From a virus, in IMG/VR virus record IMGVR_UViG_3300009163_000042, positions 1-55,667 of that record: a stretch of 55,667 nucleotides of DNA; one strand, 5' to 3'. Shown here piece by piece: positions 36,539 through 46,899 of this stretch. A model generated the notes under the pieces. The model was not told the origin of the DNA. It searched no databases and saw only the letters and a program-made list of their open reading frames with translations. The translations under genes were made by a program, and so were the position numbers. Numbering within the stretch: position 1 is the first letter of the stretch; each line of letters opens with the position of its first letter.

Positions 36539-36781
36539 TTATTTACTGGAAACTGGAGTTCTTGTTGAAAATGAATATGCTACACACACTGCGTCATCTG
36601 TTTTTGCGTAAGAGCAACGCACTGACATTGGATTAATTCCAGATGAAATAGCATCTTTTATATTAGACGCCATTAAATTTCTATCATTAACATGATAATG
36701 AGTAAAACCACCAATTCCAATAATCACAATCAGTGATACACATATAACAAAGATCGAATCAATTTTAAAAAAATCTTTCAT
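36539..36781 (-). CDS. Small membrane-anchored protein following the endolysin
   Basis: An 80-residue protein with one N-terminal membrane segment (residues 8-27, IFVICVSLIVIIGIGG) and an outside domain with two Cys (VRCSYAKTDDAVCVAYS). The Cys pair may form a disulfide in the periplasm. It overlaps the endolysin stop by four bases, so it may belong to the lysis unit, for example as a spanin- or antiholin-like part. That role is inference from position only. Confidence 0.55.
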   Translation of the reverse strand: MKDFFKIDSIFVICVSLIVIIGIGGFTHYHVNDRNLMASNIKDAISSGINPMSVRCSYAKTDDAVCVAYSFSTRTPVSSK

Positions 36782-37329
36782 ATTTCTCTATCTTTCTTTA
36801 TGTAAAAAATATGTCTTCCAATCGTAGCAGTATGTTCTACATTCTTCCATCTTGGATTGACGTAATCGGCATGATAAAATAACGCTCCATTAGTTGGATC
36901 GCTAATTCTTTCATAATTAACATATACGAAAGAAGCAATGCTAAGAATATTCTCATAGACGTTATCTCTTCTTTCATGAAGCGCATTGCTTAAAAACATT
37001 TGCTTTTGTTTTTCCTGACAATACCAAGAAAATTGGCATGTAGTATGAGTCTTCTGTGTAACTACATCGCAAATAGAACTTGGAAAGTTTGAAGATTTAG
37101 TTCTATTTAAAGTCACAAATGCTACTGCAACTTTACCAACATCTGGTTCATACGCAGATTCGTAATAAATGTTTTCAGCAAGACATCTCACTTGTTTTTG
37201 GACAGAAGGCGTGAATGAATCGAATGATACTTGAATTTCATTTGATTGTTCATGCTGAATAAAGTAATTATACATTACTGCAATGAATGGCATTAATACC
37301 AAAGACAACAGTATTAGTCTTTTCTTCAT
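36778..37329 (-). CDS. SleB-type cell wall hydrolase (membrane-anchored endolysin)
   Basis: A 183-residue protein. Residues 4-23 are a hydrophobic signal or signal-anchor segment. The rest is the Hydrolase_2/SleB domain: RCLAENIYYESAYEPDVGKV with likely catalytic Glu57, then VAFVTLNR, ICDVVTQ, CQFSWYC and GALFYHADYVNP. These enzymes cut peptidoglycan glycan strands. The N-terminal segment suggests export by the host Sec system, as in SAR endolysins. The ribosome site AAGGAG is inside a perfect 18-bp palindrome (37335-37352), which may restrict translation. Confidence 0.85.
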   Translation of the reverse strand: MKKRLILLSLVLMPFIAVMYNYFIQHEQSNEIQVSFDSFTPSVQKQVRCLAENIYYESAYEPDVGKVAVAFVTLNRTKSSNFPSSICDVVTQKTHTTCQFSWYCQEKQKQMFLSNALHERRDNVYENILSIASFVYVNYERISDPTNGALFYHADYVNPRWKNVEHTATIGRHIFYIKKDREI

Positions 37330-38430: not shown

Positions 38431-38601
38431 TTTAATTTCCTTAGAAAAAGTTTTTAAATAATACTATCAACTTGTCAGATTTGTCGCAATGTGTTCAGTA
38501 CGAGATATGTAATGGTATCGGTTGCTGGCATCAAGCATAGACTAACTAACATTGGTAGGTTATTCTGTTACGAGGAAACCTACCGAAACCCTAAGCCGAG
38601 T

Positions 38602-38634
38602 TTAGGCGGCTAATGCGAACTGTGAGTCGTTTGC
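38602..38634 (-). other. tmRNA tag reading frame (ANDSQFALAA)
   Basis: Ten codons GCA AAC GAC TCA CAG TTC followed by GCA TTA GCC GCC and stop TAA, preceded by an A-rich resume region. The tag begins AND and ends LAA, as proteolysis tags do (E. coli ANDENYALAA). It is closer to betaproteobacterial tags than to alphaproteobacterial or cyanobacterial ones. Confidence 0.9.
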
Positions 38635-38778
38635 TTTTACTTTTTTTTGCTTCTACGACCGGGTTACTCCCAATCCTACGGGTTTCACATTCCCGTGCTG
38701 TCCACTCATTTACTTGTTGCCCTGTCGAATCTAGATCACCCCCAACTAATTGCTTTCTTTGTGCCAACCATTTTAAAA

Positions 38779-38852
38779 TGGTGGATATAACGAGAATCGA
38801 CCTCGTATTTTACAAATTCGGAGTTTGCATGTCCTACTTGGACGATATACCC
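38779..38852 (-). tRNA. tRNA-Gly-like sequence (anticodon UCC) inside the tmRNA
   Basis: Seventy-four bases between the two tmRNA halves. Acceptor GGGTATA/TATATCC (one G-U), D stem GTCC/GGAC, anticodon stem TGCAAA/TTTGTA with loop CTCCGAA (anticodon TCC), T stem ACGAG/CTCGT, discriminator A and encoded CCA. It would read GGA, a preferred glycine codon here. Deviations: the D loop is only five bases (AAGTA) without the GG pair, and the T loop starts with G (GTCGATT). It may be a working but reduced tRNA or a tRNA mimic used for RNA processing. Confidence 0.72.
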
Positions 38853-38926
38853 GAAAACAATTAGGTGGAGGTGGGGGGATTCGCACCCCCGTCCAGAACA
38901 CTTTTCTCTTTGCTTCATACAGCAAT

Positions 38927-39499
38927 TCAATAACTAACTAACTTTCTATCTGCTAATGTGAATTCGCTATCTCTCACAAAAGCAGTTAAAATATATTTCG
39001 ATCCACTAATTATACTATCACCTCGATGATACATTGGTTCTTGCATATTATACTTAATAGTAAGACAGCTTCCACGTTTTGGCTTAATTCTCATATTAGA
39101 TTTATGAAAGATTGTATGCCCACCTTCAAAATCATCATTAAGATACATAATCATCGTAGCAATTCTTTGAGATTTAAACCCTGATGTTAGATCTGTGTGA
39201 AAGTCAACATAATCTCCAACATCATATCTTATGAGAAGAAGAGGCTCAATTTTCATAAAGTTTTCAACATTAAAAAAATCAGCTACTCGTTTTAACATAG
39301 AATCGAAGTATTCGTTATTACCATATTCGATTCTATGAATCTTACATTTTCTAGTATCATTAAATATTAGTTCACCATCAACACGAACTTTTGCATCTTT
39401 CCAATTATAATCTTTAGATAAGATCTCTTCAATATCTTTTTCACTTAACCAATTATCGTATTCGGTGATTAATGGATTTAAGCTATGGTATGTTACCAT
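38927..39499 (-). CDS. 2-oxoglutarate/Fe(II)-dependent oxygenase (prolyl-4-hydroxylase-like)
   Basis: A 190-residue protein of the P4H-like fold. Iron ligands are His101 and Asp103 (FHTDLTSGF) and His158 (PMYHRGDS); Lys168 in GSKYILTAFVR should bind the 2-oxoglutarate carboxylate. GGHTIFHKSNMRIKPKRGSC is the usual middle. Such oxygenases are common in aquatic T4-like phages; substrates (protein proline, nucleobase or lipid) are unknown. Its stop lies at the edge of the tmRNA. A promoter-like -10 overlaps the ATG, so transcripts from that site would miss this start. Read-through from 39929 is more likely to express it. Confidence 0.85.
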   Translation of the reverse strand: MVTYHSLNPLITEYDNWLSEKDIEEILSKDYNWKDAKVRVDGELIFNDTRKCKIHRIEYGNNEYFDSMLKRVADFFNVENFMKIEPLLLIRYDVGDYVDFHTDLTSGFKSQRIATMIMYLNDDFEGGHTIFHKSNMRIKPKRGSCLTIKYNMQEPMYHRGDSIISGSKYILTAFVRDSEFTLADRKLVSY

Positions 39500-39527: not shown

Positions 39528-39929
39528 TTATTTTAGAACATCAAAGATATCATTCGTATCAATAGAAGTTGATTCCACCATCAACGTTTGATTCTTCAAC
39601 ATTCCATCCCAAACAGTCAATTTGCTTTCACGCTCTAACTTTTCTATGACGGGCGTATGTATAGCCTTAAGATGAGATAAGAAATTTTCTCTAGTAACAC
39701 CGTGAGATGAAAACGCCCAATCTAATACCGTATTAGCGTCCAAATCGTCTATTTCAATGAAGTTTTTAAGTTGAGTAAACTTTATAGTTGATTCTCCACC
39801 AGCTACACTAGTATGATCACCTCTATTGAACACCACTGACCATGTAACTTTATTGATTACGTTTTTATGTAAATCAGTATTAGTTACAAAGATTTCGTTT
39901 ATATATGCTTCGTGTTTAATATCATTCAT
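39528..39929 (-). CDS. Hypothetical protein at the end of the accessory cassette
   Basis: A 133-residue protein, beta then alpha: KVTWSVVFNRGDHTSVAGGE, then IEIDDLDANTVLDWAFSSHG and ENFLSHLKAIHTPVIEKLER. It overlaps the TIM-barrel gene by eight bases. The pattern resembles small phage proteins of unknown role. No catalytic motif. Confidence 0.55.
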   Translation of the reverse strand: MNDIKHEAYINEIFVTNTDLHKNVINKVTWSVVFNRGDHTSVAGGESTIKFTQLKNFIEIDDLDANTVLDWAFSSHGVTRENFLSHLKAIHTPVIEKLERESKLTVWDGMLKNQTLMVESTSIDTNDIFDVLK

Positions 39930-40791
39930 GATTATTTCCAGTTAGTCTTTGTGTAATTTGTTTTACAGTTTCAATTTTAGCTATATGCTTTATAGCATGA
40001 CCCATATACACTAATCCCTTAGTTCCAGTTTCAATACCTTCTATAAGAAAATTGGTATAATTAGAATCTATATGATGATTTGTTCTTATGTTCTTATTAA
40101 AGACAATACAGTTATGAAAATAAGGACTATTAATCTTTTTTAGCATTGATAGTTTATTTTTATTTGCTATAAGATTATTTTTAACATCATTTGTTATTTT
40201 ACTCTCATTACTTAAAGCAAATAGCGTGCCTATAGAAACTCCATCTGCACCATCCTTAATCATTTCATCTATATCATTCTTATCATATACTCCACCACTA
40301 GCAATTATACGAATATCACTATAATGTTCTCTTATGACTTTAACTTGTTCATTTAAAGTTTTAGTTTGAGGACAATTTAATCCTGCGCTTTTTTCATTCT
40401 TTAAAATTATAGCATACAAAGTATGTGCTATATCTTTTATAGAGGAAACGTTTTCAATGTATACTTGCTTAAGGATAATTTTTATATTATTACGTTTAAG
40501 CTTTTCAAAAGTGCTAATTTGCCTTCTATCATCATAACCAAGTATTTCGACATATGCAGGATTCATAGCAATAATTTTATCAATATTAATAATATCATCT
40601 ATACAAGTTGAAATTACAATATCGTTTGAATTAGTAATCGATTTAAATTTAATCATATCATCACTTAATTCATTGTACAAACTTTTATAATTAAAAACAG
40701 ATAATGATGGCAATACCCCTACATTATATGTAGCAATTGCTAAATTTAAATCTGACACTCTATTCATTGCTGCGCATAATATAAAATACAT
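39922..40791 (-). CDS. Nitronate-monooxygenase-like TIM-barrel flavoprotein
   Basis: A 289-residue protein with the layout of FMN TIM barrels of the 2-nitropropane dioxygenase/FabK group. It starts AAMNRVSDLNLAIATYNVGV with PSLS, and the phosphate-binding end is IRIIASGGVYDKNDIDEMIK then DGADGVSIGTLFALSNES. The GAEAGGH motif of true nitronate monooxygenases is replaced by NEKSAGLNC, so substrate and activity may differ. It is the second-to-last gene in the overlapping cassette with PP-loop and ATP-grasp genes. It probably oxidises or reduces a small intermediate of that pathway. Confidence 0.7.
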   Translation of the reverse strand: MYFILCAAMNRVSDLNLAIATYNVGVLPSLSVFNYKSLYNELSDDMIKFKSITNSNDIVISTCIDDIINIDKIIAMNPAYVEILGYDDRRQISTFEKLKRNNIKIILKQVYIENVSSIKDIAHTLYAIILKNEKSAGLNCPQTKTLNEQVKVIREHYSDIRIIASGGVYDKNDIDEMIKDGADGVSIGTLFALSNESKITNDVKNNLIANKNKLSMLKKINSPYFHNCIVFNKNIRTNHHIDSNYTNFLIEGIETGTKGLVYMGHAIKHIAKIETVKQITQRLTGNNHE

Positions 40792-40800
40792 ATGAATTAT

Positions 40801-41124
40801 TTAAACTACCGCATTCTCTAATAGATATGTATCGTATTCTTCTGGCGCACAATATTCAATTGCTCTATTAAGTTTAATATAATTTTCCGCATTGTATTTC
40901 ACTCTAGCATCAGAAGCTATTTTGATATCTGGAATATCTGCAAATGCTATTAATTCATCAATTGTAGAAAACCAGACAGTTAATGTTTTAGTTGTCATAT
41001 TATCATAGAAGCGAATTCCAGTTCCAGGTAAAGGCGATTTATACTTATCTACGTGTCCTTCTGGAAATTCATAAAATGGAGTCGCTATGCTTCCTCTTTT
41101 TTCTGTTATAGTGCTTTTAATCAT
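40801..41124 (-). CDS. Hypothetical cassette protein
   Basis: A 107-residue protein with PFYEFPEGHVDKYKSPLPGT, WFSTIDELIAFADIPDIKIA and a helical acidic end. It overlaps the PP-loop gene by eight bases, which argues for joint action. Not recognised. Confidence 0.55.
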   Translation of the reverse strand: MIKSTITEKRGSIATPFYEFPEGHVDKYKSPLPGTGIRFYDNMTTKTLTVWFSTIDELIAFADIPDIKIASDARVKYNAENYIKLNRAIEYCAPEEYDTYLLENAVV

Positions 41125-41983
41125 TAATTTTTCTCCTATTTAACCATGCTAATGCTTGCTGTTTAGATCCTATATTTAGATTTTTACATTTAACATATTT
41201 CATAAGATCCGAATAGTATTTTTTCCATTCAGGTATATCATTGAATGTATCTACCTTTTCTCTAATTTCTATGTCAAATAACATAGATTTAGCCAATTGT
41301 TCTTCTTCTTTATCGTTTAAGCAATACATATAACTATGCACTGTATTTGGAAAATATGAAAAAGCAGATCTTGGATGCTTACCATTTCTAGTAATTTGTA
41401 AGATAAAATCTACATCCCAATAATTAAATGTTTGTTCTAAATTCTTATTTATGGATGAGCCGGTTTTGTTATATCCCCAAGTTCCTCCTGGATCTCCATC
41501 ACCGGTTAACAATACTCCATTATGCTTCTTTTCTACATAATCTGCAAGAAACATATTAACATAGCAACCGATATTATTTGTCAAATATTCTTTATGGTAA
41601 TTAGTAACACTATATTGTAAAAATTTAGATGGGGAAACATTAACTACGTATTGAGTATATCCATTCTTCTTACACCAACGCTCGGCCCACTTCAATTCTT
41701 CATTATTATAATCGTCAAATTTTAGGGATATTGGAACAAATTGTATTTTATTACGTTTTAGCACGTTAGCAACATACTCAGAATCTAATCCGCCAGAAAG
41801 AGCAAGATATATAGGACTTGCGTATGTGTTAGCCATATGACACATAGCCCTATCCATTTCTAAATGAAAATCAATAGCAGTTGAATCAGCATAATCTACA
41901 AGCTCTAATTCAAACTTTATTTCATTTCCTTTGATAGTTTGTTTTGGATTAGCCCAACCAAGATATTCTATATTATAAATCAT
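41117..41983 (-). CDS. PP-loop ATP pyrophosphatase (asparagine-synthetase-like)
   Basis: A 288-residue protein with the N-type PP-loop SGGLDS at 63-68 (IYLALSGGLDSEYVANVLKR), which activates a carboxyl or carbonyl group as an AMP ester. Further family features are DDYNNEELKWAERWC and GVLLTGDGDPGG. The glutamine amidotransferase domain of asparagine synthetase is absent, so ammonia or an amine would come from elsewhere. It starts four bases inside the ATP-grasp-like gene. The product is unknown; amide or thio-group formation on a small molecule or nucleic acid is possible. Confidence 0.75.
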   Translation of the reverse strand: MIYNIEYLGWANPKQTIKGNEIKFELELVDYADSTAIDFHLEMDRAMCHMANTYASPIYLALSGGLDSEYVANVLKRNKIQFVPISLKFDDYNNEELKWAERWCKKNGYTQYVVNVSPSKFLQYSVTNYHKEYLTNNIGCYVNMFLADYVEKKHNGVLLTGDGDPGGTWGYNKTGSSINKNLEQTFNYWDVDFILQITRNGKHPRSAFSYFPNTVHSYMYCLNDKEEEQLAKSMLFDIEIREKVDTFNDIPEWKKYYSDLMKYVKCKNLNIGSKQQALAWLNRRKIND

Positions 41984-43038
41984 ATCACCTTTGCAAACGA
42001 TATCATATTTTCTTTTGCTTTTTCGTATGTTTCAGCTGCAGTAATAAAAAGAAATTTTCTTTGTGCATCTTTATTATTTTTCGCAAATGGTATACTCACA
42101 ATATTATGTTTGTTCATCATTGAATTTACATGTGACTTATCTAATACGCTTACTTTAACATAACTCTGATAATATTTAAGTTTAGTAATAGATTCAACTT
42201 TATTTATTTGATCAGACATAAACTTAACACAGTCACTGCAATAATTAGGTTCAAAATGAATTCTTCCCCAAAGACTATTATAGCTAAGACGGTATTGCCA
42301 GTCTGTAGGATACCATATGCGTTCTTTAAAGTTACGTAAGAATTGCAATAAGAATAAAGTGTTTCTAACGCCAGAATTCTTTATAAGTTTTCTTAGATTT
42401 TCTTTAATCTTATCTATTTGAGAATCATCATCTTTATCCCACTCAAGTTGTGCAATCCATCTACCATCTACGAATTCTATTTCATGTATAGATGAAAAGA
42501 ATACTTCGCCTTCACCATTTACAAAACCTTCAACATATAATTGACCATAAGATTCGCCGGCTTTTGCAATTGCATCTTGTATAATATAACCTCTATTAAA
42601 TAACTTCTCAGAAGTTAACATAGCAGCTTGACCTCTTACATTAAGAACATCATCGTAAATTTTATAACAGAATGCATCTCCACTAGAACCAGCAGATAAT
42701 CTAGGTTTTATAATAATAGAATTATCTAAATGATTATTAAACGAGTGTAATGAAGTTAAAAGACTAGTATATAACACATTCATACCAGCATCCTTAAATA
42801 AAGATACATTATCAGCCTTATCGCATAAGGATTTTGGAAAATGAGTTATATTATGTTGCTTAAAATAAGGATCATAAACATCCCAAGATTCATAATGAGA
42901 TACAGTAAATTCACATTTTTTCTCGGTATCGTGTGTTACAATCAGATTTCCATTTTCAGCAAATCTTTTATAAGCTAAAAAATGTCTTTTCATTGCACCT
43001 TTTATTTCAGTGCATTTTGGCATAAAGATATATTTCAT
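41980..43038 (-). CDS. ATP-grasp-like ligase
   Basis: A 352-residue protein. The centre resembles an ATP-grasp domain: a nucleotide-binding strand NSIIIKPRLSAGSSGDAFCY, a partner strand YGQLYVEGFVNGEGEVFFSS, and a late metal-site-like block LLQFLRNFKERIWYPTDWQY. The N-terminal third (MKYIFMPKCTEIKGAMKRHF) would be the substrate side. Enzymes of this fold join a carboxylate to an amine through an acyl phosphate. The usual NxR ending is not clear, so activity needs proof. It is coupled by four-base overlaps on both sides. Confidence 0.6.
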   Translation of the reverse strand: MKYIFMPKCTEIKGAMKRHFLAYKRFAENGNLIVTHDTEKKCEFTVSHYESWDVYDPYFKQHNITHFPKSLCDKADNVSLFKDAGMNVLYTSLLTSLHSFNNHLDNSIIIKPRLSAGSSGDAFCYKIYDDVLNVRGQAAMLTSEKLFNRGYIIQDAIAKAGESYGQLYVEGFVNGEGEVFFSSIHEIEFVDGRWIAQLEWDKDDDSQIDKIKENLRKLIKNSGVRNTLFLLQFLRNFKERIWYPTDWQYRLSYNSLWGRIHFEPNYCSDCVKFMSDQINKVESITKLKYYQSYVKVSVLDKSHVNSMMNKHNIVSIPFAKNNKDAQRKFLFITAAETYEKAKENMISFAKVI

Positions 43039-43469
43039 TTTACGTCTTTACCAAAACCAATCTTATTCCAAACTCTTTCATGAGTATAATAAATTACTAT
43101 ATTCATAATAGTTGCAATAGTTAAGAATGCTATTGCTGATTTCCAAGAACCAGTTGTAAGATATGGAATCATAAAATTATTAAATGTAATCAATGCACGC
43201 CACGTAATCGATTTACTAATAGTTCTTGGTTGTCCGTCAAGAAACATTAAATTGTCTTCCGGTTTTCTATTCCATTGAGCATAATTCCAAGCTCTTTCAT
43301 GAACCCAATGAAGACCCATATTAATTACTGCAGCAATTCCAACAATCTGAGCTCCAATAATCCAAGAGCCTGAAACTATAAAACCATTAATAAAATGACT
43401 AAGCGAAAATAATACTCTAATAGTTAGAGTCTTAAATATACTTCTTAATTGTGTTTCTGTGTATTTCAT
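43035..43469 (-). CDS. DUF2061 membrane protein (two repeats)
   Basis: A 144-residue protein made of two DUF2061 units: residues 8-65 (KTLTIRVLFSLSHFINGFIV to GLHWVHERAWN) and 84-138 (KSITWRALITFNNFMIPYLT to IYYTHERVWNKIG). Each unit has two membrane helices and ends in HER-x-WN. DUF2061 genes are known next to sulfur-assimilation genes in bacteria, but the function is not established. In this cassette it may be a membrane partner for transport or for the binding protein encoded just upstream. Confidence 0.82.
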   Translation of the reverse strand: MKYTETQLRSIFKTLTIRVLFSLSHFINGFIVSGSWIIGAQIVGIAAVINMGLHWVHERAWNYAQWNRKPEDNLMFLDGQPRTISKSITWRALITFNNFMIPYLTTGSWKSAIAFLTIATIMNIVIYYTHERVWNKIGFGKDVK

Positions 43470-44359
43470 TCGTTCACCTTAATGTTTTTAGTAATAGATT
43501 TCCAATATTGTTCTTGCTGTTTATACCAAGCATCTGATATATTATATTCAGTACAAAAATCTAATGTATAGTTATTTTGTACATGTGTTCCTCGTTTTGC
43601 TTTAGAAAATATTTCTTTAAACTTTTCGTGCATTTCATTAGTAACATATGTGTTACTTAACAAAAAGAATGGTTGAACAATTCCTTCTGTTCCATCAATT
43701 CCTTGAGACTTTAAAGTTGGGGTATTAAAAAGAATCTTATTACCACTAAGACCAACGCCATTTAGTGCACCACTTTCTATATGTTGACGAACATCTCCAA
43801 TAAAAGCAATTCCCATATCTAATCTTCCGGCTGTTGCATCAATAATAGATTGAATAGATCCTTGATAAGGCACTATATTAACATTCTTATATTTCTTCTG
43901 AATCTCTAGCGCAACTAAGTGTGTATTAGCTCCAAGCCCAGTTACACCAATATTAATATTTGCATCAACTGGAACATCTTTAAATGTACTATATTTTTTA
44001 CTATAAACTATAGGTGGACTATAGCAAAGACCAACTAATGGTTTAAATGTATTAATATCATATGGGTTATTTGAAAATAATCCTAATCTAATAAAATAAT
44101 TACTTCCAGTTGCAAGAATAGCTGGTGCATTTCTATTTGAAACATACCCTGCAGAAATTGCTCCAGCAGCTCCAGGTTTATTAACAAAAATAAACTTATA
44201 ATCTGATTGTATCACATTAGCTTCATCAACCAAAAATCTAATGTGATTAGCTGTAACTCCACTTGAATTAAATGGCCATACTACTTCAATTACTTGAGAA
44301 GCAGATACTGATGCGTATATCGCAATAAAACTTGCAATTAAAAATTTCATAAATCTCAT
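43466..44359 (-). CDS. Bug/TctC-family periplasmic substrate-binding protein
   Basis: A 297-residue protein with a Sec signal (MRFMKFLIASFIAIYASVSA). The mature part follows the Bug/TctC pattern: FVNKPGAAGAISAGYVSNR (pocket motif VNRPGAGG), NIGVTGLGANTHLVALEIQK, and NIVPYQGSIQSIIDATAGRL. Bug proteins bind carboxylic acids, amides or nicotinate-type compounds and are greatly expanded in betaproteobacteria. A phage copy is unusual. It suggests uptake or sensing of a small carboxylate in the periplasm. No TctAB-type transporter is in the window. It overlaps neighbours by one and four bases. Confidence 0.85.
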   Translation of the reverse strand: MRFMKFLIASFIAIYASVSASQVIEVVWPFNSSGVTANHIRFLVDEANVIQSDYKFIFVNKPGAAGAISAGYVSNRNAPAILATGSNYFIRLGLFSNNPYDINTFKPLVGLCYSPPIVYSKKYSTFKDVPVDANINIGVTGLGANTHLVALEIQKKYKNVNIVPYQGSIQSIIDATAGRLDMGIAFIGDVRQHIESGALNGVGLSGNKILFNTPTLKSQGIDGTEGIVQPFFLLSNTYVTNEMHEKFKEIFSKAKRGTHVQNNYTLDFCTEYNISDAWYKQQEQYWKSITKNIKVNE

Positions 44360-45504
44360 TATATAAATCCTTTCATTTCACCTAAGCAATATGTTTGTTT
44401 GAACTGTTTAAGACCATCAGGCATTCCCAATTCATTATATTGAATATAATCTTTGGCATGTGTTATCAAATAGTCTATACCTCTATTCCAAAGAAGATAT
44501 TCACGAGTGTCTTTCTTTTGATTAAAAAACCAATTTTCAAATTGGTTATTATGAAATAGACCTGTAGACTTATCGGCTTGATACCATTCTTTATTCCATG
44601 TAGTATATAGTATGTCTCTTAAAAGAGGTTCTATAATTAACCTAGATTTTTTATAGTCAGCGCTCTTCCATAATCTTTGTAAAGAAGGCACATATTCTAT
44701 CCACTTTTTTATAATATGACCTTGTTTACAAATTAACTTTGCAGCAGTCTTATCCCAATAAAAGAACTCTACATGAAGATTTGGATACTTGTTATAATCG
44801 TATATTGGTGTTATATTAGCAGTGGTATCATTAAGAAACAAATAGAATTTATTATGCGAAATAAAACTCTTAGGTTTATCCACGCCTGAAACAAATGCAT
44901 ATCTTTTATTTTTATCTAGAGTTTTATTAATGTCTATAAAATCAAAATAATCATATCTAAAAGTTTGACCTATAGATAAATTATCAGTTTTATTTAAGAT
45001 CCAATCTGCATCGTCTTCTTTGCTAAGTGCATTAAATATTTTATCACTTAAATCAAGTATTGTTATCTTAGTTCTTGGTAACTTATCGTACAATTCTTTT
45101 AGACGAGGAATTGCTTGTAATTGATGTTCAGCTGCAAAATTTGTAGAATCTCGATTATTGTGATTCAAAATTGTAACACTCTTAGTTGCATCTGTTACAT
45201 GATTAGTTATAATTTCATCAACATGCAATCCTTGTCGAATAAATGATTGCAACATATTATGACTATCAGCTCCTCCACTATAGCTTAACATTATATAATC
45301 ATATTTTTCACGAAGTTCACGAGCTCTTTTATCGTAAAGTTCATCTAAAGTTTCTTGTGGTTCTATCCACCAAGGATATGTAGAAAATACATCTTGATGA
45401 AACATCCATTGAATAGGCTTCTTAAATTGAGTCGAATATATGCATGCTCTTATTTTAGAATCGAACCTTTTGCCATCGCAGATGTAATAACCACTAGAAG
45501 ACAT
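44359..45504 (-). CDS. Phage PP-loop ATPase (large form)
   Basis: A 381-residue protein with SGGADS at 76-81 (YDYIMLSYSGGADSHNMLQS). Upstream is WMFHQDVFSTYPWWIEPQET and LDELYDKRARELREKYDY; downstream RYAFVSGVDKPKSFISHNKF and VEFFYWDKTAAKLICKQGHI. I recognise this arrangement in aquatic T4-like phages, always of unknown function. It is the first gene of the cassette. With the second PP-loop gene it could activate two different carbonyl groups. Asparagine-synthetase-like C-terminal activity is one reading; a tRNA- or DNA-modifying role is another. Confidence 0.72.
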   Translation of the reverse strand: MSSSGYYICDGKRFDSKIRACIYSTQFKKPIQWMFHQDVFSTYPWWIEPQETLDELYDKRARELREKYDYIMLSYSGGADSHNMLQSFIRQGLHVDEIITNHVTDATKSVTILNHNNRDSTNFAAEHQLQAIPRLKELYDKLPRTKITILDLSDKIFNALSKEDDADWILNKTDNLSIGQTFRYDYFDFIDINKTLDKNKRYAFVSGVDKPKSFISHNKFYLFLNDTTANITPIYDYNKYPNLHVEFFYWDKTAAKLICKQGHIIKKWIEYVPSLQRLWKSADYKKSRLIIEPLLRDILYTTWNKEWYQADKSTGLFHNNQFENWFFNQKKDTREYLLWNRGIDYLITHAKDYIQYNELGMPDGLKQFKQTYCLGEMKGFI

Positions 45505-46166
45505 TAATGACCTTTTAACTTTGAATAGGTTTCACGAAGTTCTAAGAACTCGCCAATCCAATCATCGCGTTTTTCAATGAACACAGAACAATTCGGTTGT
45601 TCATCTACAGCTATTAAAATTACAAGTCTATCTACAGGAATTCCCGTACGTTCTTCAAACATAACTGCATAAGCTGATGTTTGCATGAAGTAGCTATGTA
45701 TATTATTTCGATGTTTTTCTTTCGAAGAAGTTTTAAAATCAATGATCGATAGTCGGCCATCGTATTCTGCAATGCAGTCTACTGTGCCGGCTACTTGAAG
45801 ATGATCGGAATAGAGTTGAGTCTCGAGACAATGTATATTATTGATTTTCTCGAGTTGAGGTCGTATAGACTTGAATGTGTCTAAATCAAATATGTCAGGG
45901 TTGACTTCTTGATTGAGGAGATGATGCTCGCAGAGCGTGTGTATACGAGTACCTCGTCTTGAGGCACGGCTTGATACTCGGTTCGCTTCTTCTTCTCCAA
46001 CTCTTTGGCGCCATTCGCGTATTTGTGCTTGTGAGTGGAGTCCGAGGATTGATGTGACGGAAGGATAGGCGTTACCAGTGGGAGTCTCGTAACGACGTCC
46101 TGATGGCGTATCGATTCTATTGAGTTTGGGTATATCATGTTCGATATGTTTAAACAGAGTCTTCAT
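45504..46166 (-). CDS. PD-(D/E)XK exonuclease (RecB/Cas4/MGME1-like)
   Basis: A 220-residue nuclease. Motifs: RRGTRIH at 70-76 (G-x3-H), AGTVD with Asp130, IIDFKTS with Asp143 and Lys145, and QTSAY at 162-166 (Q-x3-Y). The N-terminus RYETPTGNAYPSVTSILG is the usual opening of the phage form. It should trim DNA ends in recombination or host DNA degradation. The end of phoH overlaps its start by 17 bases. Confidence 0.85.
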   Translation of the reverse strand: MKTLFKHIEHDIPKLNRIDTPSGRRYETPTGNAYPSVTSILGLHSQAQIREWRQRVGEEEANRVSSRASRRGTRIHTLCEHHLLNQEVNPDIFDLDTFKSIRPQLEKINNIHCLETQLYSDHLQVAGTVDCIAEYDGRLSIIDFKTSSKEKHRNNIHSYFMQTSAYAVMFEERTGIPVDRLVILIAVDEQPNCSVFIEKRDDWIGEFLELRETYSKLKGH

Positions 46167-46899
46167 AGCGTAGTTTAGCCAAAATATAATCCTTCACTAA
46201 AGAGCTACGGACAATATCATCAGGCGTAAATTCAATCTTTGTAAAAGCATTCATATGGTATGCAATGTCAAAGAATTTTAAAATTCCTGACATGTCATTC
46301 TTTTTCTTATTTAGGTCTGTCTGACGATAATCACCACACCATAAGATCTTTGAACGATAACCAACACGAGTCATTACTGTGTCAATTTCTTCAAAGGTTA
46401 GATTTTGCATTTCATCGACAATAATGATTGCATCATCAAAAGACATTCCTCGAATAAACGAAGTAGAGATAAACTCAACATGTCCTTGTTCTTCTAATCT
46501 ATCCCAAGCATCTTTGCGACTAAATAATGTATCACAGATTTGTCGATATGGTTGTTGATAAATGTCCATTTTCTCAGATACATCACCTGGAAGATGTCCT
46601 ATTTCACGTGATTGTACTGCTGAGCGTACAACAATAATTTTATTGAAAGGGTTGCTTTTATCAAGTACTTCTTCTAGAGCTTTATATAAAGCACAAAATG
46701 TTTTACCCGTTCCTGCAACTCCATGTAGCGCTACGAAATAATCTCCTCTTTTATATGCATCAAAAAATAATTTTTGATTATCTGTAAGAGGGGCAAAGGT
46801 TTTTAAATCATCAGCTCTTATCCTTAAAGAGTTGTTTATCGGCTTAAACTTTTCAGGTGTTTCATTATCAACTGATTTCAGCGCTGCTTTTCTGACCAT
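46150..46899 (-). CDS. phoH: PhoH-like ATPase
   Basis: A 249-residue protein with Walker A GVAGTGKT (60-67), VVRSAVQSREIGHLPGD, Walker B IIIVDEMQN (158-166) and WCGDYRQTDL. PhoH is among the most widespread genes in aquatic phages. It may act as an RNA-linked ATPase or helicase; its link to phosphate stress is not general. The N-terminal 30 residues are specific to the phage form. It is placed in the early/auxiliary region. Confidence 0.92.
   Translation of the reverse strand: MVRKAALKSVDNETPEKFKPINNSLRIRADDLKTFAPLTDNQKLFFDAYKRGDYFVALHGVAGTGKTFCALYKALEEVLDKSNPFNKIIVVRSAVQSREIGHLPGDVSEKMDIYQQPYRQICDTLFSRKDAWDRLEEQGHVEFISTSFIRGMSFDDAIIIVDEMQNLTFEEIDTVMTRVGYRSKILWCGDYRQTDLNKKKNDMSGILKFFDIAYHMNAFTKIEFTPDDIVRSSLVKDYILAKLRYEDSV

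Follow-up and report, generated by a model that had tools for sequence, protein, structure and literature searches.

We found a cassette of eight genes in a phage genome fragment, organized around a PP-loop enzyme (PP1) that shows conserved linkage in related phages with transport proteins, a second and small PP-loop protein (PP2), a DUF2061 membrane protein and an NMO-like barrel. We tentatively read the cassette, with somewhat less than even confidence, as part of a modular phage island built around the PP1 ligase family that couples organic-acid uptake to ATP-dependent ligation.

The window, that is, the whole stretch of 55,667 nucleotides analyzed here, comes from a large, uncultured aquatic phage of the T4-like kind and represents part of its genome; the record also has genes for a T4-like baseplate, tail tube, ssDNA-binding protein and helicase loader. 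The genes can be classed as a phage auxiliary metabolic gene cassette, in which host-type metabolic genes lie on a bona fide phage genome. ORF calling on the window placed all eight genes on the minus strand, running from 45504 to 39528. The features of the cassette and its flanks are as follows.

45504..46899, minus strand: hotspot edge, exonuclease (45504-46166) and PhoH (46150-46899), conserved flank
44359..45504, minus strand: g1 (PP1), hub PP-loop enzyme with the N-type ATP-PPase fold, 381 amino acids (SYSGGADS motif, AF2, Foldseek)
43466..44359, minus strand: g2, TctC/Bug periplasmic organic-acid-binding protein with an N-terminal hydrophobic signal-like segment (PF03401)
43035..43469, minus strand: g3, DUF2061 membrane protein with two repeats, 144 amino acids (PF09834, two copies)
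41980..43038, minus strand: g4, putative ATP-grasp ligase, 352 amino acids (motifs)
41117..41983, minus strand: g5 (PP2), asparagine-synthase-like PP-loop protein with no glutaminase domain, 288 amino acids (PF00733)
40801..41124, minus strand: g6, small protein of about 100 amino acids, recurrent unnamed island family (iterated HMM)
39922..40791, minus strand: g7, NMO/FabK-superfamily TIM barrel of the FMN type in which the catalytic His is replaced (PF03060)
39528..39929, minus strand: g8, DUF7936/phrog_7802 protein (profile matches)
38927..39499, minus strand: g9, 2OG-Fe(II) oxygenase 28 bp downstream of the cassette (PF13640, 43.5 bits)
36778..37329, minus strand: other hotspot edge, endolysin-like protein, conserved flank

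From g1 to g8, successive genes overlapped by 1, 4, 4, 4 and 8 bp, were separated by a 9-bp gap and overlapped again by 8 bp, confirming the tight cassette described in an earlier, sequence-only reading of this DNA. The exonuclease gene upstream overlapped g1 by 1 bp. The GC content of the cassette was 0.27-0.31 and that of its surroundings 0.33-0.40 (about 0.36), marking a low-GC block. The exonuclease and PhoH genes also border islands in the related loci L005 and L016, the exonuclease gene borders that of L129 too, and the endolysin-like gene is shared with all three.

PP1 had no match in Pfam, NCBIfam or PHROGs, and a PDB sequence search with its profile gave no credible match. The AF2 model of g1 is of high confidence (pLDDT 91.8) and shows a HUP-type Rossmann fold, and Foldseek searches with it retrieved PP-loop ATPases, namely GMP synthetase and carbapenam/beta-lactam synthetase (E ≤ 1e-3, probability 0.99-1.0), at low TM-scores of at most 0.36. 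Because the SYSGGADS motif, the model and the Foldseek matches agreed, g1 was assigned to the PP-loop ATPase class despite the absent Pfam match. PP1 thus shares the SxGxDS PP-loop and structural matches with the N-type ATP-PPases (asparagine, beta-lactam/carbapenam and GMP synthetases), but differs from them in the low TM-scores and in having neither a glutaminase domain nor a Pfam or NCBIfam match. The second PP-loop ATPase proposed in the sequence-only reading, g5, was also borne out, as it matched Asn_synthase (PF00733) from residue 57 with 43.6 bits against a cutoff of 21. No glutaminase domain match was found in g1 or g5, whereas AsnB has such a domain at its N-terminus.

At least 94 PP1 relatives were found in IMG/VR and none in 50,697 phage records. 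The other tested families were likewise absent from these records, weak barrel matches aside, in agreement with the suggestion that the gene content was new among phages. These ten barrel matches (Listeria and other unannotated records) resembled bacterial FabK and were set aside. Parts of the block, rearranged around PP1, recur in dozens of uncultured phages and not in the sequenced laboratory phages searched, which points to a seemingly undescribed phage-borne metabolism.

The binding protein and the membrane protein were both assigned as previously proposed. g2 matched PF03401 with 35.3 bits (cutoff 27), and its family profile matched 7ndr and BugD; by a simple hydropathy rule, 33 of 38 members of the TctC family have a hydrophobic N-terminus. 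g2 therefore resembles the Bug/TctC proteins of tripartite tricarboxylate transporters in its profile match and signal-like N-terminus, and related phages also have TctA and TctB-like genes. It differs from those systems in being phage-borne and paired with a PP-loop enzyme, and no TctA or TctB gene was found in the 55-kb fragment. g3 matched PF09834 twice (86.8 bits, cutoff 23.1) and is 82% identical to its counterpart in L001.

The claims on g4 and g7 held in part. An ATP-grasp-like ligase had been proposed for g4, and the motifs IIKPxxGxGG and YPxDWxxR, common to g4 and its divergent homologues in L129 and L149, agree with this putative assignment. In hhalign comparisons with E. coli ATP-grasp enzymes and decoys, the top match was a weak one to the ATP-binding loop of CarB (CarB-N), and other ATP-grasp proteins did not rise above the decoys. 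No profile in the databases searched matched g4 as an ATP-grasp protein, and its AF2 model was unusable (pLDDT 37.5). Single-sequence scans of viral contigs, phages and plasmids found no relatives of g4, which could be linked to others only weakly, by way of L129 and L149. g7 matched PF03060 with 44.5 bits (cutoff 28), and its family profile matched FabK/NMO structures (best E 5.8e-17, a FabK-type structure), in line with the proposed flavin barrel. The His of the NMO/FabK GGH motif is catalytic. It was found in 0 of 48 barrel members, which have a GAGR-type motif at this position (SAGL in the window), and nitronate monooxygenase chemistry is therefore unlikely.

We examined the neighbours of PP1 in 55 non-redundant phage loci against shuffled gene orders within each locus. 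PP1 adjoined TctC in 25 of the 55 loci, where 5.6 were expected and none of 1000 shuffles reached this number; because the test takes no account of phylogeny, a single inherited arrangement may be counted repeatedly. The same comparison gave 16 loci for PP2 (5.9 expected), a family found in 28 of the 55, 12 for DUF2061 (2.0 expected) and 10 for the barrel (2.7 expected). These values lie far above those of shuffled orders, indicating that the grouping exceeds chance. Neighbourhood conservation held for the partners of PP1 but not for the composition of the set, which varies; in 14 loci, on contigs that are often truncated, PP1 was the sole one of six families within 10 kb. The sequence-only reading had named active-site loss and independent occurrence of the genes as arguments against a pathway. 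The outcome was mixed: the SxGxDS PP-loop was intact in 119 of 120 distinct PP1 members and 52 of 57 PP2 members, but membership varies and the barrel is also found apart from PP-loop genes.

Among 40 distinct PP1-TctC neighbour pairs, PP1 came first in 20 and its partner in 7, while 10 were convergent and 3 divergent; the ends lay at most 30 bp apart in 32. The occurrence of all four orientations speaks against one common origin. Such neighbours occurred three times each in L017, L067 and L069, and twice in L074. Divergence of PP1 and TctC was correlated (Mantel r 0.45, 0/2000), and their nearest neighbours agreed in 10 of 34 cases (1.0 expected). PP1 was the more strongly conserved of the two, and its TctC partners seem to have been exchanged.

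TctA permeases were present in four loci (L033, L058, L070 and L074). The gene order was TctC-TctB-like-TctA-PP1 in L033 and PP1-PP1-TctC-ATPgrasp-FA hydroxylase-PP2-PP1-TctA-TctC in L058. The proposal of capture followed by activation gained support from the enriched TctC-PP1 adjacency and from relatives in which TctA immediately precedes PP1, in one case together with a TctB-like gene. A GARS-type ATP-grasp gene directly followed PP1 in four loci and TctC in L058. With duplicates removed, 13 of 42 barrel loci had no PP-loop genes; transporter genes were found in 13 of the 29 loci with PP-loop genes versus 0 of the 13 without (Fisher p 0.003). That DUF2061 stands in for TctB is left as speculation because it does not track TctA; the two occurred together in L074 only. 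Islands of relatives also contain halogenase, desaturase, radical SAM, GNAT, Rieske and other enzyme genes.

We infer the substrate flow, chemistry, product and benefit of the island as follows. Phage-made TctC would be exported to the periplasm and pass an organic acid to a permease, either host TctAB or, in relatives, phage-coded TctA. In the cytoplasm, PP1 and PP2 would use ATP to adenylate a carboxylate or amide-type carbonyl, and attack by an amine would yield an amide-type product. The ATP-grasp protein could carry out a second ligation via an acyl-phosphate. Tailoring of the product would fall to the FMN-type barrel and the 2OG oxygenase, with DUF2061 perhaps acting at the membrane. The end product would probably be a small conjugated metabolite that aids infection. 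In a bolder version, which we regard as rather doubtful, PP1 founds an undescribed system of substrate-specific pairs of importer or binding protein and PP-loop ligase, several per genome, by which chosen acids are imported and conjugated into a specialised metabolite.

Several observations count against uptake coupled to ligation: the varying composition of the set, the loci with PP1 alone, the lack of TctA and TctB in the fragment, the apparent exchange of TctC partners beside a more conserved PP1, and the place of g8, and probably g9, outside a fixed set. The set is modular and reshuffled, and the earlier idea of a complete small pathway was not upheld. It is possible, if somewhat doubtful, that the site is a hotspot gathering unrelated auxiliary metabolic genes, each acting alone, whose closeness reflects the insertion site and co-transcription. 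The window, L005, L016 and L129 carry different gene sets between the same flanks, and the island is AT-rich, modular in content and extended by further enzymes in relatives; what speaks against this reading is that PP1 lies beside TctC, PP2, DUF2061 and the barrel much more often than in shuffles of the same locus, and that PP1-TctC neighbours are repeated within one genome and co-vary.

An unlikely alternative is that a glycoconjugate or lipid of the surface or virion is made or altered by the island, with the PP-loop and ATP-grasp enzymes amidating sugars or fatty acyl groups, and the phage thereby changing the envelope of its host, perhaps to prevent superinfection. Among the PP1 or barrel loci, some have genes resembling in sequence those for sugar-nucleotide dehydrogenases, nucleotidyltransferases and glycosyltransferases, or fatty-acid desaturase and hydroxylase genes, and three Bacteriovoracaceae chromosomes have a PP1-like gene near aminotransferase-, epimerase- and glycosyltransferase-like genes; however, the window's own cassette has no glycan genes, and organic-acid binding proteins and permeases better match uptake. 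That PP-loop chemistry serves to modify phage DNA or host tRNA, in the manner of queuosine-type or thiolation pathways, is very improbable: PP2 is weakly similar to QueC and MnmA, but neither a domain for binding tRNA or DNA nor a partner for nucleobase synthesis was seen beside the genes, and the closest partners are transport proteins.

Phages carry single uptake or metabolic genes, and the literature on the present combination yielded single-gene mentions only. T4-like aquatic cyanophages carry the binding protein gene pstS, thought to raise uptake, and the tryptophan halogenase gene prnA (PMC2984593). These are single genes for phosphate or halogenation, whereas the window ties an organic-acid binder to ATP-dependent ligases. 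Genes of SUP05 viruses in uncultured viral contigs include a tctA domain match, with its role given as unknown, and a 2OG oxygenase (PMC4164917); unlike the window, no PP-loop link or cassette is described in the available part of that report. If uptake coupled to ligation is correct, phages would run their own small import-and-synthesis pathways by way of a recurrent island, encountered here in uncultured phages alone. PP1 is now a named hub family open to expression and assay, and the contig set can serve for testing the hypothesis.

The g6 family was present in 47 loci by iterated HMM search. g8 had no relatives in the other islands, lies outside a fixed gene set and is probably a passenger. 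g9 is a possible extra cassette member, probably also outside a fixed set; 2OG oxygenases recur in related islands.

The eight minus-strand genes between positions 45504 and 39528 (g1 to g8) were present as the sequence-only reading had stated, and their spacing was confirmed from the ORF coordinates. At the first five junctions, neighbouring genes overlap by 1, 4, 4, 4 and 8 bp; the sixth leaves 9 bp between genes, and at the seventh the overlap is again 8 bp. The GC content of the block is 0.27–0.31. The genes are listed in the order in which they are read.

Genes of the cassette (45504 to 39528, minus strand)
g1: PP-loop ATPase family, termed PP1
g2: TctC, organic-acid-binding protein; Pfam-supported
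g3: DUF2061, two copies; Pfam-supported
g4: putative ATP-grasp protein, from motifs only
g5: Asn_synthase, the asparagine-synthase-like PP-loop family termed PP2; Pfam-supported
g6: recurrent unnamed family of approximately 100 aa, found in 47 loci of phage islands
g7: NMO, an FMN barrel family; Pfam-supported
g8: DUF7936; Pfam-supported

No match to g1 was found in Pfam or NCBIfam, and none that was credible in PHROGs. An AlphaFold model built from 38 sequences was confident (pLDDT 91.8), and a Foldseek search with this model retrieved GMP synthetase, carbapenam synthetase and beta-lactam synthetase, all with low TM-scores. The predicted structure places g1, and with it PP1, among the PP-loop ATPases. 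The PP-loop motif is intact in 119 of 120 PP1 and 52 of 57 PP2 sequences. Both families differ from asparagine synthetase in that they lack its glutaminase domain. The profile of the barrel family matches those of both FabK and NMO. NMO activity is unlikely, judging from the sequences, because the histidine at the catalytic position is missing in all 48 members; the barrel of the window also carries SAGL where most members have GAGR.

None of the 50,697 phage records searched matched PP1, but IMG/VR contained at least 94 relatives. Among 84,980 cellular genomes, PP1 was found at four loci. Three are similar chromosomal loci of Bacteriovoracaceae (L145, L146 and L147), and the fourth is a 3-kb contig binned as Methylococcaceae, which carries DctP and two PP1 genes and looks like phage DNA. 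In the three Bacteriovoracaceae loci, the PP1-like gene is conserved downstream of RpiB and a membrane-protein gene, with glycosyltransferase-, aminotransferase- and epimerase-like genes nearby.

We evaluated the linkage of the families at the 55 PP1 loci that remained after near-duplicates were dropped. Within 10 kb of PP1, TctC was present at 30 loci, PP2 at 28, the barrel at 21, the g6 family at 19 and DUF2061 at 13. Relative to 1000 shuffled gene orders, which ignore kinship among loci, PP1 was the direct neighbour of TctC 25 times (5.6 expected), of PP2 16 times (5.9), of DUF2061 12 times (2.0) and of the barrel 10 times (2.7), none of these counts being reached in any shuffle; two PP1 genes were adjacent nine times (3.1 expected; reached in 2 of 1000 shuffles). 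Adjacency of TctC with PP2, or of PP2 with the barrel, was not enriched over the shuffled orders. Thus, PP1 is the hub and the other families are spokes. Counting only those that differ in sequence, there are 40 adjacent PP1-TctC pairs, found in all four orientations, although they are not fully independent events. Three such pairs each occur at L017, L067 and L069, and at the latter two loci one TctC is common to two PP1 genes. The members of the pairs co-vary (Mantel r 0.45), and their nearest neighbours agree in 10 of 34 cases, against 1.0 expected.

Several relatives carry permease genes. At L033, the order is TctC, TctB-like, TctA and PP1; TctA scored 463.6 bits, and the TctB-like protein of 63 aa scored 24.5 bits, under the Pfam cutoff. 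At L058, the order is PP1, PP1, TctC, GARS-type ATP-grasp, fatty-acid hydroxylase, PP2, PP1, TctA and TctC; a carbamoyltransferase gene (L058:15251-16702; PF16861, 180 bits) lies near the PP1-TctA-TctC run. SBP_bac_5 and TctA surround two PP1 genes at L070, and DctP is present in eight loci. Among loci collected with the barrel as the seed, transporter genes were found in 13 of 29 with PP-loop genes and in 0 of 13 without them (p 0.003). This contrast and the transporters near PP1 relatives are the main support for the proposed role in uptake. The proposed capture of a compound followed by its activation is therefore supported by gene linkage and by the permeases of relatives.

The further proposal of one complete pathway, extending to ligation and redox change, was not borne out. 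The window, L005 and L016 hold differing PP1 cassettes at one site, with PhoH/exonuclease on one side and endolysin on the other. L129 has the same exonuclease and endolysin as the window and contains a g4 relative with TauD, TctC, PP1 and the barrel just past its endolysin. With shared flanking genes and different gene sets in these four, the site holds exchangeable modules and not one fixed operon. A hotspot that gathers independent genes is a serious, if less likely, rival to functional linkage, to be weighed between these varying contents on one side and the adjacency and co-variation with PP1 on the other.

The cassette is real and unusual. In the open-access journal papers searched, we found no description of a cassette combining PP-loop and transporter genes. 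Among the genes of T4-like cyanophages are pstS, whose phosphate-binding product is presumed to increase uptake by infected cells, and the tryptophan halogenase gene prnA (PMC2984593). On contigs of SUP05 viruses, a 2OG oxygenase was noted along with a domain hit to tctA, to which no role was assigned (PMC4164917). In an uncultured phage, a tryptophan halogenase gene (L026:7787-9391; 192.7 bits) is located two genes ahead of PP1. Large phage islands (L131, L133, L136; L092, L125) carry the barrel either with PP1-DUF2061 or without PP1, alongside sugar-nucleotide dehydrogenase-, glycosyltransferase- and radical-SAM-like genes.

The window is an IMG/VR virus record of 55,667 bases. Its baseplate wedge protein is nearest to those of Pelagibacter phage Mosig (39%) and the Methylophilales Melnitz phages (37%), and further T4-like genes are present. 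The window also encodes a permuted tmRNA (38547-38976, minus strand; Rfam RF01850, 95.9 bits; RF04321, 119 bits) with the tag ANDSQFALAA. This tmRNA, of the betaproteobacteria type, suggests that the host is one of the betaproteobacteria. Related aquatic phages are on record as having tmRNAs in two pieces (PMC9004378). A tRNA-Arg(CCG) is located at 38779-38852, within the intervening segment, and a tRNA inside a phage tmRNA may be unusual.
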